Positions 35 to 38,840 of a DNA stretch of 38,840 nucleotides are shown piece after piece (positions within the stretch are counted from its first letter, which is position 1; each line of letters starts with the position of its first letter). The position numbers and the translations under genes were made by a program. Below the pieces are notes generated by a model that was not told the DNA's origin, ran no database searches, and worked only from the letters and a program-made list of their open reading frames with translations. The DNA is from Betaproteobacteria bacterium (GTDB lineage: Bacteria; Pseudomonadota; Gammaproteobacteria; Burkholderiales; SG8-41). Location of the stretch: the NCBI GenBank assembly GCA_016183675.1, contig JACPEF010000034.1, forward strand, positions 1-38,840. The letters run 5' to 3'.

Positions 35-1639
<1,605 letters not shown>

Positions 1640-1675
1640 TTATGAAAAACAGTTGTATTTTAGGCCGGTCGGCAG

Positions 1676-1704
1676 GGAACTCTCGGCCATTATAGTCGTC
1701 CTAA
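1676..1704 (+). promoter_or_regulatory. candidate ECF-type (RpoE-like) promoter: GGAACT-N16-GTCCTAA
   Basis: GGAACT at 1676-1681 and GTCCTAA at 1698-1704, 16-nt spacer; places a start at about 1710, the first base of hairpin 1 of the candidate sRNA. Confidence 0.4.
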
Positions 1705-1709
1705 ACTTC

Positions 1710-1813
1710 AGACGATGTTGAATCGTCTCCCGCTTCTCCTCCCTGAGCGGGCGCCTTAATCCTTATTAAGGCTTTTGCCCCCGGTTTTACTCCCCTTTAA
1801 CCGGGGGTTTTTT
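1710..1813 (+). ncRNA. candidate small RNA with four consecutive hairpins
   Basis: AGACGAT/ATCGTCT (1710-1728), CCCGCT/AGCGGG (1729-1751, loop UCUCCUCCCUG), GCCTTAAT/ATTAAGGC (1753-1772), terminator stem CCCCCGGTT/AACCGGGGG (1778-1807) plus T6; no + strand protein gene ends here. Confidence 0.65.
1778..1813 (+). terminator. intrinsic terminator, + strand
   Basis: 9-bp perfect stem followed by TTTTTTATT; no T-tract on the minus side. Confidence 0.85.
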
Positions 1814-2095
1814 ATTGTATCGAGCCGCTGATCACGGTCTGCGCCGCGGTTAAACCTTGCGCGCCGCGCCCGCGAACCGCTGCAGGGACAGCGCGGCATG
1901 ATCCCGGCGCGGGGCGCCGTGGGCGTGCTCGAGGCCGAGCGCTGCGTGGGACCGCGAGAACCTGTCCGCTTTGGCGCGCAGCACGTGGATCGGGTTTGCG
2001 GTCAAAGCGAACCACTCCCTGAGCGGGCGGTCGGGCGGAAGCTCGCTGGGATGGTGGACTGCGCGGTAGAACCCGGGCTGCGCGAAAAGTGACAT
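1812..2095 (-). pseudogene. engB: engB (YihA) ribosome-biogenesis GTPase remnant: internal deletion plus frameshift
   Basis: N-terminus MSLFAQPGFYRAVHHPSELPPD runs directly into the EngB C-terminal part REWFALTANPIHVLRAKADRFSR; GRSNAGKSS and DLPGYG regions absent; likely C-terminal end (AAQTVISGSIQ) continues in another frame. Confidence 0.7.
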
Positions 2096-2192
2096 AGGTT
2101 CTTGTTATCGTGCTTGAAACTGGCGCCCGAGCAGGGGCTTACTATACAATACCGCTCCGCCCGATAACGCATTCAACAGGGGAAGAACCGGA

Positions 2193-2828
2193 ATGAATCT
2201 CCGCTGGCCCGTGACGCTGATCGGCGGCGTTTTCGCTGTTTCGGCCGCGGTTGCCCAAACCCACCCCAAGCCAGACCCTTCGAAGGCGCAGCCGATCGTG
2301 ACCAAGCTGTGCGCCGCGTGCCACGCCACGGACGGCAACAGCACCCTGGCCGCCAACCCGATCCTCGCCGGCCAGCACGCCGAGTACACGATGAAGCAGC
2401 TGATGAACTTCAAGCTGCAGGGCGGCAAGCCGGCCGAGCGTCCACACAACGTGATGGCCGGGATGGTGGCGAGCCTCTCCGCCGACGACATGCGCAATCT
2501 GGCGGCGTACTTCGAAATGCAAAAACCCAGATTGCGCGCCGCTCGCGATGCCGAACTGGTCAGGCTCGGGCAGGCGATCTACCGGGGCGGGGTGATGTCC
2601 AAGGGCGTGGCAGCCTGTAGCGCGTGCCACGGCCCGAACGGCGCGGGCGTGCCCGTGCAGTTTCCGCGGCTTGCGGGACAATATTCCGAGTACCTCGCCG
2701 CCCAACTGAAGGCGTTCCGTTCCGGGGAACGCGCGAACGACCCCAACCGCATGATGCGCGCGGTGGCCGAGAAGCTCTCCGACAGGGAGATCGCGGCCGT
2801 CGCTGAGTACATCGCCGGGTTGCGCTGA
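2193..2828 (+). CDS. di-haem cytochrome c (c4-like)
   Basis: signal peptide, two CxxCH motifs (CAACH, CSACH), SLSADDMRNLAAYF and EKLSDREIAAVAEYIAGL repeats. Confidence 0.9.
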   Translation: MNLRWPVTLIGGVFAVSAAVAQTHPKPDPSKAQPIVTKLCAACHATDGNSTLAANPILAGQHAEYTMKQLMNFKLQGGKPAERPHNVMAGMVASLSADDMRNLAAYFEMQKPRLRAARDAELVRLGQAIYRGGVMSKGVAACSACHGPNGAGVPVQFPRLAGQYSEYLAAQLKAFRSGERANDPNRMMRAVAEKLSDREIAAVAEYIAGLR

Positions 2829-3732: not shown

Positions 3733-3907
3733 CTAGTGCCGTTCCAACTATTTGCGGGTAATCCAGTCAGTTCTGCATGCCCTGATTACCGCCGGCAGGC
3801 TAGCCCCGTTCCAACTATCGAGCCCGATCCAACTGCGCCTCCAGGACCGGAAAGTTGGAACGGGGCAAGCCGCCCAAGTTTGGCGAAACAAGTTGGAACG
3901 GCACTAG
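3733..3907. mobile_element. MITE-like palindromic element (outer copy) interrupted by a nested related element
   Basis: 17-bp perfect terminal inverted repeats CTAGTGCCGTTCCAACT...AGTTGGAACGGCACTAG; aligns with the 17100-17207 copy once 3803-3866 is removed. Confidence 0.85.
3803..3866. mobile_element. nested 64-bp related element with its own inverted repeats
   Basis: GCCCCGTTCCAACT (3803-3816) / AGTTGGAACGGGGC (3853-3866), flanked by C-TA on the left and AA-G on the right. Confidence 0.75.
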
Positions 3908-22018: not shown

Positions 22019-23011
22019 ATGAAATCATGCAAGAGCAGCCTTCGTCGGTGCGGCGCCGGGACGGCGCTCGGCCTCGCGCTCGCGCTCAGCCCGGCTGGCG
22101 GGGGCGCGGCGCAGAGCGAGTTTCCGGGCAAGCGGCCGATCCAGATGACCGTGCTTTTTCCGACCGGCACGTCCGCGGACCTGACCGCCCGCATGCTGGC
22201 CGAGGGCATGTCGAAGCACCTCCATACCAACGTCGTGGTGGTCAACCGGCCCGGTGGCGGCGGCGCCGTGGGATACAAGTATGCCGCGGCGCAGACGCCC
22301 GACGGCTACAACATCGTCTGGAACTCGAACTCGATCTCGACGACTTATCACACCGGGGCGCTTTCCTTCGACTACCGCGCCTTCGAACCGGTGGCGCGCG
22401 CCCTGGTGGAGTCGCCGCTGCTGGTGGTCAAGGCCGATACGCCGTGGAAGAGCCTGCGCGAATTCGTCGTGGAGGCGAAGCGCGCGCCGGGGAGGCTCAC
22501 GGTGGGCAACTCCGGTACCGGCAGCCACACCCACTTTTCGTCGGTGGCCCTTTTCAAGGCGGCCGGCGCCGAGGTGCTGGATGTGCCGTTTGCCGCGGCG
22601 CAAGTGGTGCCGAGCCTGCTCGGAGGGCACGTCAACGCGGTGGTGCAGCTGCCGGGCGCGCTCGCCGGCCACATCAAGTCGGGCACGGTGCGCGTGCTCG
22701 CGGCGCTCAGCACCCGGCGCGATCCGTCGTTTCCCGCGGTCGCGACGGCGATCGAGCAGGGCGTGAACGTTGCCGCCGAGCTTTGGCGCGGCGTCGCGGC
22801 GCCGAAGGGCACGCCCCAGGCGACGATCACGCGGCTGGAAGCGGCGGTCCGCGCGGCCGTTGAGAGCGAGGATTTCCACAAGTCCGCGGAACGCCTTTTC
22901 GTGACCCCTGCCTATCTCCCCGGCCGGCCGTTTGGCGAGGTCATCGCCAAGGAGGACGTCGAAATCGCGCGCGAGCTTCAAGGCCTGGGACTGAAGAAGA
23001 GCGCGAACTAG
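22019..23011 (+). CDS. tripartite tricarboxylate transporter substrate-binding (Bug family) protein
   Basis: signal peptide; FPGKRPIQMTVLFPTGTSADLTARMLAEGMSKHLHTNVVVVNRPGGGGAVG. Confidence 0.9.
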   Translation: MKSCKSSLRRCGAGTALGLALALSPAGGGAAQSEFPGKRPIQMTVLFPTGTSADLTARMLAEGMSKHLHTNVVVVNRPGGGGAVGYKYAAAQTPDGYNIVWNSNSISTTYHTGALSFDYRAFEPVARALVESPLLVVKADTPWKSLREFVVEAKRAPGRLTVGNSGTGSHTHFSSVALFKAAGAEVLDVPFAAAQVVPSLLGGHVNAVVQLPGALAGHIKSGTVRVLAALSTRRDPSFPAVATAIEQGVNVAAELWRGVAAPKGTPQATITRLEAAVRAAVESEDFHKSAERLFVTPAYLPGRPFGEVIAKEDVEIARELQGLGLKKSAN

Positions 23012-36871: not shown

Positions 36872-37888
36872 ATGAAGAGGAGGGGCTTCAGCATGGAGCC
36901 GCAGCGCTCGAGCCGCCCGGTCTGCCGGGCCGTTGCTTCCGGACTCGTCTTCGCGTTCCTCCTCGCGCTGATCGCGCCGGTGGCCGGGGCCGCTTCCTTC
37001 CCGACGAAGCCGATCACCTTCGTCGTCCCCTTCCCGCCGGGCGGGCGCACGGATCTCACGGCCCGCCTTATCGCGCAGTTCGTGGAGCGGCATCTCGGCG
37101 CTCCAGCTGTGGTCATCAACAAAGCAGGCGCAGGCGGGGTGCTGGGCGCCAAGGAAGTCAGCCAGGCACGGCCCGACGGGTACCTGCTCGGGTTCTTTTC
37201 GACGGCGGTGCTCACCGCGCAGTACACGGTTCCGGCTCCGACCGACCTCAAGGACTACGAGATCATTGGCATCGTCAACGTCGATCCCGCCGCCCTCGCG
37301 GTGGGCGAGAAAGCCCCCTGGAAGACGATCGCCGACCTGGTCGAGCACGGCCGAAAGAACCCCGGGAAACTCCGGATCGGGATGATCCCGGGGGCGTCTG
37401 CCCAAGTTTTCGCAGGCGGGTTCGCGAAGGCCGCCGGGATTCAGGTCACCTACGTGCCGTTCAAGGGCGACGCCGACGGCGCGGTCGCGCTCGCGGGCGG
37501 CCACATCGAGGCGCACGTGGCGGTGCCTGTCTCGTACAAGTCGCTGGTGGAGGCGAAAAAGGTGCGCATCCTCGGCGTCGCCGCCGACAGGCGCTCGCCC
37601 CTCTACAAGGACGTCTCCACCTGGAAGGAGCACGGCGTGGACGTGGTCATCACGTCATTCCATGGCGTCTTCGCGCCGCGCGGTACGCCGCGCGAGGTGC
37701 TCAGCGTTCTGGAGGGCGCACTCGAGAAGACCATGCAGGAGAAGGAAGTCGGCGACCAGATGACCGCGGCCGGGCTCGGGGCCATTTATCTCGGCCGCCA
37801 GGACGCAGCCGCCTTCATGGCTCAGCAGGACGCCATCTACCGGGCGCTGATCCAGGAGCTCGGCATGATGGTGGCGCCGAAGAAGTGA
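36872..37888 (+). CDS. tripartite tricarboxylate transporter substrate-binding (Bug family) protein
   Basis: FPTKPITFVVPFPPGGRTDLTARLIAQFVERHLGAPAVVINKAGAGGVLGAKEV. Confidence 0.9.
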   Translation: MKRRGFSMEPQRSSRPVCRAVASGLVFAFLLALIAPVAGAASFPTKPITFVVPFPPGGRTDLTARLIAQFVERHLGAPAVVINKAGAGGVLGAKEVSQARPDGYLLGFFSTAVLTAQYTVPAPTDLKDYEIIGIVNVDPAALAVGEKAPWKTIADLVEHGRKNPGKLRIGMIPGASAQVFAGGFAKAAGIQVTYVPFKGDADGAVALAGGHIEAHVAVPVSYKSLVEAKKVRILGVAADRRSPLYKDVSTWKEHGVDVVITSFHGVFAPRGTPREVLSVLEGALEKTMQEKEVGDQMTAAGLGAIYLGRQDAAAFMAQQDAIYRALIQELGMMVAPKK

Positions 37889-37918: not shown

Positions 37919-38840
37919 ATGGATGACATGACGCGCAAGCTCGGTGCCCTGCTGCTTGCAATGGCGATCGCGCTGGGCGTATCGGCGCCGACCGTAATCG
38001 CGCAGACCTATCCATCCAAGCCCATCATGCTGGTGGTGCCGTTCCCGGCCGGGGGGCGCACCGACCTCACCGGCCGTGTGGTGGCCCAATTCCTTCGGAA
38101 CGAACTGGGGCAGCCTGTGGTGGTCGTCAACAGACCGGGGGCGAGCGGCGTCCTCGGCGCCAAGGCGGTGGCTGGCGGCAACGCTGATGGTTACACCTTG
38201 GGCATATTTTCCACCGGCTTCCTCACCACCCAGTACACGGTACCGACGCCCACCAACCCGCGCGAGTTCGAATTCATCGCGCTGATCAATAAAGACCCGG
38301 CGGCGGTGGCGGTTCCGGTCGCGCGCGGCTGGAAGAACCTCGAAGAGGTGGTGAGGTGGGGCCGCGCCAATCCGGGCAAGCTCCGGGTGGGGATCAATCC
38401 GGGCAGCTCGGCCCATGTCTTCGCGGCCGCCTTCGCGCGGGCTGCGAACCTCGACGTCGTGTACGTCCCGTTCCGCGGCGGCGGCGAGCGCGCCCCCGCG
38501 CTGGCCGGCGGTCACATCGATGCCGACTTCGACATCGTGGCGCCGCTGCGGCCCCTGTCGGAAGCGGGCAAGGTCCGCATCCTGGCCGTGGCGGCCGGGC
38601 GGCGGGTCGAGCTCTATCGCGACATCGCCACCATGCGCGAGCAGGGCGTCGACCTCGTCATCTCGTCCTGGCACGGGGTGTTCGCGCCCAAAAACACGCC
38701 TCAGCAGGTGCTTGCGGCGCTAGAGGCGAGCCTGCAGCGCATTTCGCGCAACCCAAAATTTCTCGCCCACATGGAGAAGCTCCTGCTCGGTGTGCGCTAC
38801 CTGAGCCGCCAGGAATTCGCGAACTTTTTTGCCGAGCAGG
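37919..38840 (+). CDS. Bug family substrate-binding protein, truncated by the window end
   Basis: open frame from ATG 37919 (or 37928): MTRKLGALLLAMAIALGVSAPTVIAQTYPSKPIMLVVPFPAGGRTDLTGRVVAQFLRNELGQPVVVVNRPGASGVLGAKAV; absent from the ORF list because no stop is reached. Confidence 0.9.
   Translation, partial: MDDMTRKLGALLLAMAIALGVSAPTVIAQTYPSKPIMLVVPFPAGGRTDLTGRVVAQFLRNELGQPVVVVNRPGASGVLGAKAVAGGNADGYTLGIFSTGFLTTQYTVPTPTNPREFEFIALINKDPAAVAVPVARGWKNLEEVVRWGRANPGKLRVGINPGSSAHVFAAAFARAANLDVVYVPFRGGGERAPALAGGHIDADFDIVAPLRPLSEAGKVRILAVAAGRRVELYRDIATMREQGVDLVISSWHGVFAPKNTPQQVLAALEASLQRISRNPKFLAHMEKLLLGVRYLSRQEFANFFAEQ

Follow-up and report, generated by a model that had tools for sequence, protein, structure and literature searches.

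Anti-hemB RNA (Burkholderia RNA 7; Rfam RF02837) is known from Burkholderia cenocepacia J2315 as ncS04, a 105-nt transcript whose 3' end was confirmed by RACE and dRNA-seq and which is reported to be bound by Hfq, has no known function and shows an unchanged level across seven conditions in a qPCR table (PMC5688073). Anti-hemB is also listed for Burkholderia pseudomallei (PMC3521395). The Pseudomonas sRNA ErsA (Pseudomon-1; RF01719) depends on AlgU/sigma-22 and represses, assisted by Hfq, the translation of algC and oprD (PMC8395346). ErsA is located between polA and engB, and this polA-sRNA-engB slot is also the locus of Spot 42 (RF00021) in E. coli. Spot 42 is under CRP/sigma-70 control. In the literature searched, three papers mention anti-hemB, none of which deals with ErsA, and no paper linking the two RNAs was found.

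In the window, i.e., the whole 38.8-kb stretch of DNA that was analysed, four consecutive hairpins followed by a T6 run lie on the + strand (1710-1808) in the gap between hemB and a remnant of engB (Table 1). The RF02837 model matches at 1726-1815 with 79.4 bits (gathering score 49.5), is covered from position 1 to 81 of 81, and is the sole Rfam family (release 15) matched across the window. An earlier note on this DNA had called the RNA unannotated, which is wrong, since RF02837 and ncS04 already cover it. The RNA is a member of the catalogued anti-hemB family, the function of which is so far unexplained. It resembles this family in the sequence and structure of hairpins 2-4 with their C-rich loops and, like ncS04, is located at hemB-engB and has a predicted length of ~105 nt, whereas hairpin 1 and the ECF-type promoter are both undescribed by Rfam. 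The start of the sRNA was placed using the promoter boxes together with the 105-nt length of ncS04. Unpaired C/U-rich stretches complementary to ribosome-binding sites also occur in the RF02278/double-hairpin RNAs (ncS27, S17) and in the alphaproteobacterial RF02344 RNAs, but these differ from the window RNA in architecture and loci. On the window both models remained below their gathering scores (RF02278, Betaproteobacteria toxic sRNA, 20.8 bits vs. 50; RF02344, ar14/CcsR-like, 26.9 bits vs. 58.8).

Table 1. Positions of the predicted sRNA gene, its putative promoter elements and the neighbouring genes in the window.
Feature	Position	Strand	Evidence
ECF/RpoE-type -35 box GGAACT	1676..1681	+	sequence; identical in 24/24 family members
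TATAGT in spacer, possible overlapping sigma-70 -10 box	1691..1696	+	consensus scan, 9 of 12, poor -35
ECF-type -10 box GTCCTAA	1697..1703	+	sequence; same spacing class across beta- and gammaproteobacteria
Predicted anti-hemB-family sRNA, ~105 nt	1709..1814	+	RF02837 match; start estimated to +/- 2 nt
Hairpin 1, 7 bp, outside the Rfam model	1710..1728	+	fold; double changes in 6/7 pairs
Hairpin 2, CCCGCU/AGCGGG, loop UCUCCUCCCUG	1729..1751	+	fold; loop 1737-1744 unpaired
Hairpin 3, 8 bp	1753..1772	+	fold; double changes in 4/6 pairs counted
Hairpin 4, intrinsic terminator, loop with CUCCCC, T6 tail 1808-1813	1777..1813	+	terminator scan, fold
hemB, divergent upstream neighbour	620..1627	-	ORF; tblastn matches beside the RNA in nearly all betaproteobacterial loci
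81-codon engB remnant lacking the central GTPase core	1850..2095	-	tblastn with intact relative (L025)

The region 1705-1815 has a predicted minimum free energy of -46.2 kcal/mol, compared to -25.1 +/- 3.4 kcal/mol in dinucleotide shuffles (z -6.3), and none of the 200 shuffles was as good. The predicted fold comprises 7, 6 (+1), 8 and 10 pairs, the last helix consisting of 9 pairs plus a G-U, and both UCCUCCCU in hairpin 2 (U1737-U1744) and CUCCCC in the terminator loop (C1790-C1795) have a predicted unpaired probability of 1.00. The earlier note is right on the location of the four stems, the two C-rich loops, the U-tract and the promoter-like boxes. In an alignment of 26 divergent betaproteobacterial-type sequences, 88.6% of the cells are paired under the four-helix structure, vs. 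31-49% when the partners are slid, and the covariation score is 0.383 compared to 0.166 for shuffled and at most 0.129 for slid partners. The stems do show compensatory changes in relatives, with double changes in 18 of 28 pairs, including all eight pairs counted in hairpin 4. Helix 2 is nearly invariant in this set, partly because most loci were fetched via an exact helix 2 match; in gammaproteobacteria its stem varies and CCUCCCU is largely kept. This comparative evidence supports the claim that the locus is an sRNA gene in its own right, which carries a terminator of its own.

Matches to RF02837 above the cut-off were found in 53 of 60 relatives. A wider draw of 369 genomes was taken from the GTDB class that joins beta- and gammaproteobacteria, and 167 of these have a match at E <= 0.001, only 21 above the cut-off. 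For the gammaproteobacterial sequences, RNAalifold on a MAFFT alignment (A2) recovered the terminator and one doubtful short helix only, as the hairpin lengths differ among gammaproteobacteria, and a model-guided alignment (A3) was used in its place. In several gammaproteobacteria the RNA is tandemly repeated, with two to four copies that are often located at polA-engB, in the manner of sibling sRNAs (loci L044, L049, L050, L063, L243, L249 and L264; contigs G230:C33, G322:C3 and G338:C8).

As in most betaproteobacterial loci, hemB lies divergent upstream of the RNA and the engB remnant convergent downstream. The family name would suggest a cis-antisense regulator of hemB, and hemB is the adjacent, divergent gene both here and in nearly all betaproteobacteria. 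However, the RNA runs away from hemB, it has no overlap with the hemB coding sequence (1709-1814 vs. 620-1627), and in gammaproteobacteria the neighbour is polA, not hemB, yet the RNA is kept. Such a role is therefore extremely improbable and was rejected on the grounds of geometry and gammaproteobacterial synteny. The other neighbour was correctly positioned beside the RNA in the earlier note, but engB is not whole there: only residues 1-34 and 122-181 of the intact EngB of a relative (L025) match the window in tblastn, leaving an internally deleted remnant of 81 codons. A search of the whole genome of the window (a fragmented assembly, 91% complete with 3.5% contamination) returned no EngB above the cut-off. 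EngB, a GTPase of ribosome assembly, is generally considered essential. In this one genus, engB shows differing internal deletions or has been lost completely in at least six genomes; internal deletions of different kinds are found at L015 and L022, no recognisable engB remains at L013, L026 and L031, and a long engB is kept at L018, L024 and L025. As the sRNA persists in all these genomes, it is independent of an intact engB neighbour. Further along the window, between an amidohydrolase gene and hemL (~3734-3906), an inverted repeat TAGTGCCGTTCCAACT...AGTTGGAACGGCACTA, which itself contains internal repeats, resembles by eye a small repeat element.

Upstream of the RNA the proposed pair GGAACT/GTCCTAA is present, although with a spacer of 15 nt and not 16. 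The motif is conserved: within the family of the window, 24/24 sequences have an identical GGAACT, and GTC and the later A of the -10 box are 92-96% conserved, whereas most flanking positions are variable, and the box pair extends well past the genus. With a loose regular expression devised for the present analysis, on which the counts depend, ECF-type boxes were detected in 93 of 134 betaproteobacterial upstream sequences (2.2 in Markov shuffles) and in 14 of 26 gammaproteobacterial ones (0.55 in shuffles), although these are not independent events, since the upstream sequences are related, and some Burkholderiaceae matches (AAACTT...TATCATA) are equally readable as sigma-70 boxes. A genuine RpoE (TIGR02939, 330.9 bits) is among the proteins of the genome, and GAACTAA...GTCAG is present upstream of the rpoE gene, as expected for autoregulation. 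A genome-wide search with GGAACT-N16..18-TCNNA yielded 24 matches vs. 77 in the reversed control; this pattern is not richer than the control and thus defines no regulon.

Alternatively, TATAGT in the spacer could be the true -10 box. The RNA would then be a C/U-rich sRNA transcribed with sigma-70, with the ECF-like boxes being secondary, and would still occlude ribosome-binding sites, but would serve in nutrient or housekeeping control, a role that has been proposed for the double-hairpin RNAs of Burkholderia. A consensus scan returns TCGGCA-16-TATAGT, in which the -35 is poor, and the TTATA element in the ECF spacer (window 1689-1695) is conserved within the window's family, where it may form part of a dual promoter, but not outside of it. 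Burkholderia sensu stricto has lost the ECF pair, and a TATATGAT box is located there just before the expected start of the 105-nt ncS04, which is not stress-responsive; this start was placed from the length of the RNA and not by re-mapping the published genome coordinate. The GAACT...TC boxes, on the other hand, occur across beta- and gammaproteobacteria, and the invariant GGAACT lies within no other known element. We therefore consider transcription by sigma-70 at the window unlikely, and an RpoE-type promoter remains the preferred reading. At L134 and other Burkholderia/Paraburkholderia loci, the ECF-type boxes appear to have given way to a TATATGAT/TATATCAT sigma-70-like box. The promoter sequences suggest that ncS04 may be unresponsive to stress because its promoter has diverged.

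The position of the RNA agrees with that of ErsA and Spot 42, as the earlier note had claimed. Among the 69 RF02837 matches of the wider draw, nearly all of them gammaproteobacterial, a convergent engB lies less than 400 nt downstream in 39 and polA is found upstream in the same direction in 36. The note had spoken of a positional analogue, which holds for the position; for ErsA the covariance models suggest homology beyond analogy, and for Spot 42 no significant score was obtained. When engB was fetched from Pseudomonadaceae, ErsA (RF01719) was recovered with a GAACTT...GTCAGA promoter. Two models were built, R1 from betaproteobacterial-type sequences only and R2 from beta- plus gammaproteobacterial sequences with no Pseudomonadaceae knowingly included; both were calibrated on short random sequence and their E-values are rough. 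R1 ranks the 14 ErsA genes 1-14 in 91 kb (E 6e-5 to 0.026), and R2 recovers ErsA at all 14 loci, again at ranks 1-14 (E 1.7e-8 to 2e-6; 31-39 bits), whereas outside the polA-engB gap no match exceeds 12.7 bits. After the -10 box was cut away, the three ErsA genes tested kept 26-31 bits.

ErsA and the window RNA both occupy the slot 3' of engB in convergent orientation and both have ECF-type promoter boxes upstream, GAACTT...GTC in ErsA. They differ in the upstream neighbour, which is polA at ErsA and hemB at the window RNA, and in hairpin 2: ErsA lacks the CCUCCCU hairpin and has a U-rich single-stranded stretch in its place, so that the match derives from the 5' hairpin, from hairpin 3 and from the terminator, whose loop carries CUCCC. 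The missing hairpin would also fit two unrelated, C-rich, RpoE-driven sRNAs that arose or were recruited separately at the engB 3' slot, the model match then resulting from similar terminators and promoters. RF01719 and RF02837 belong to no common clan, ErsA reaches no better than E 0.88-3 with the RF02837 model itself, and RF01719 has no match in window 1600-2200 even at E 5. Spot 42 of enterobacteria, which occupies the polA-engB slot in the same direction as the family, shows that this slot can host unrelated RNAs: it has no significant sequence or structure match, with E-values of 1.4 (R1) and 0.88 (R2), RF00021 has no match in the window, and homology to Spot 42 was rejected. A separate origin is nevertheless rather doubtful for ErsA, given its undivided top ranks far above the best match outside the gap, the score retained without the -10 box, and the promoter type, slot and CUCCC terminator loop in common. 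From the model scores we conclude that homology of anti-hemB and ErsA is likely, although not proven. On balance the two would represent branches of one ancient RpoE-controlled, engB-linked family of Beta- and Gammaproteobacteria, with hemB in place of polA upstream in betaproteobacteria and a promoter switch in Burkholderia, and Spot 42 would perhaps be a fully diverged occupant of the slot.

The RNA is thus quite probably a free-standing, trans-acting anti-hemB sRNA of the Hfq type, dependent on RpoE and of common descent with ErsA, whose loops would cover ribosome-binding sites. Upon envelope stress, RNA polymerase with an RpoE-type sigma factor would start at ~1709 from GGAACT-N15-GTCCTAA, and transcription would end at the hairpin-4 terminator, resulting in an RNA of ~105 nt. 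Hfq would bind the U-tail, and the single-stranded UCCUCCCU loop of hairpin 2, together with the CUCCCC terminator loop, could pair with G-rich ribosome-binding sites. This pairing would block translation of several mRNAs, plausibly those for exported proteins, TctC/Bug solute receptors for example. The gene occupies the slot of Pseudomonas ErsA (3' of engB, convergent) and would also have its descent in common with it. An ErsA-like mode, leading from envelope stress via RpoE, the sRNA and Hfq to occluded ribosome-binding sites, appears to be the most economical for anti-hemB, because of the RpoE-type promoter, the U-tail and the exposed loops complementary to ribosome-binding sites.

Possible targets were searched for in 21 genomes, in which a perfect AGGGAGGAGA complement just before ATG has 26 matches (25 places) vs. 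11 for a permuted pattern. TctC/Bug periplasmic receptors account for 6 of the 19 long ORFs with such a site, one of them in the window's genome, compared to 1 of 5 in the control. As predicted targets these receptors are only suggestive, since the genes are very numerous and the control also had one in five: the 3.0-Mb genome of the window has 145 TctC/Bug matches, some of them fragments, a large expansion. For one such leader the duplex energy is -24.0 kcal/mol, a value that is within the spread obtained with shuffled leaders (mean -16.4 kcal/mol, minimum -29.8 kcal/mol). TctC/Bug genes are also present within the window itself (22187-22894, 37061-37864 and 38075-38839, + strand).

For the anti-hemB family, which is without an assigned function or regulator, RpoE becomes a testable regulator and ErsA a well-studied probable relative. 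The diverged promoter offers a reason for the missing stress response of the Burkholderia member. An orphan RNA named after Burkholderia would thereby become part of a regulator found across much of two large groups of bacteria.
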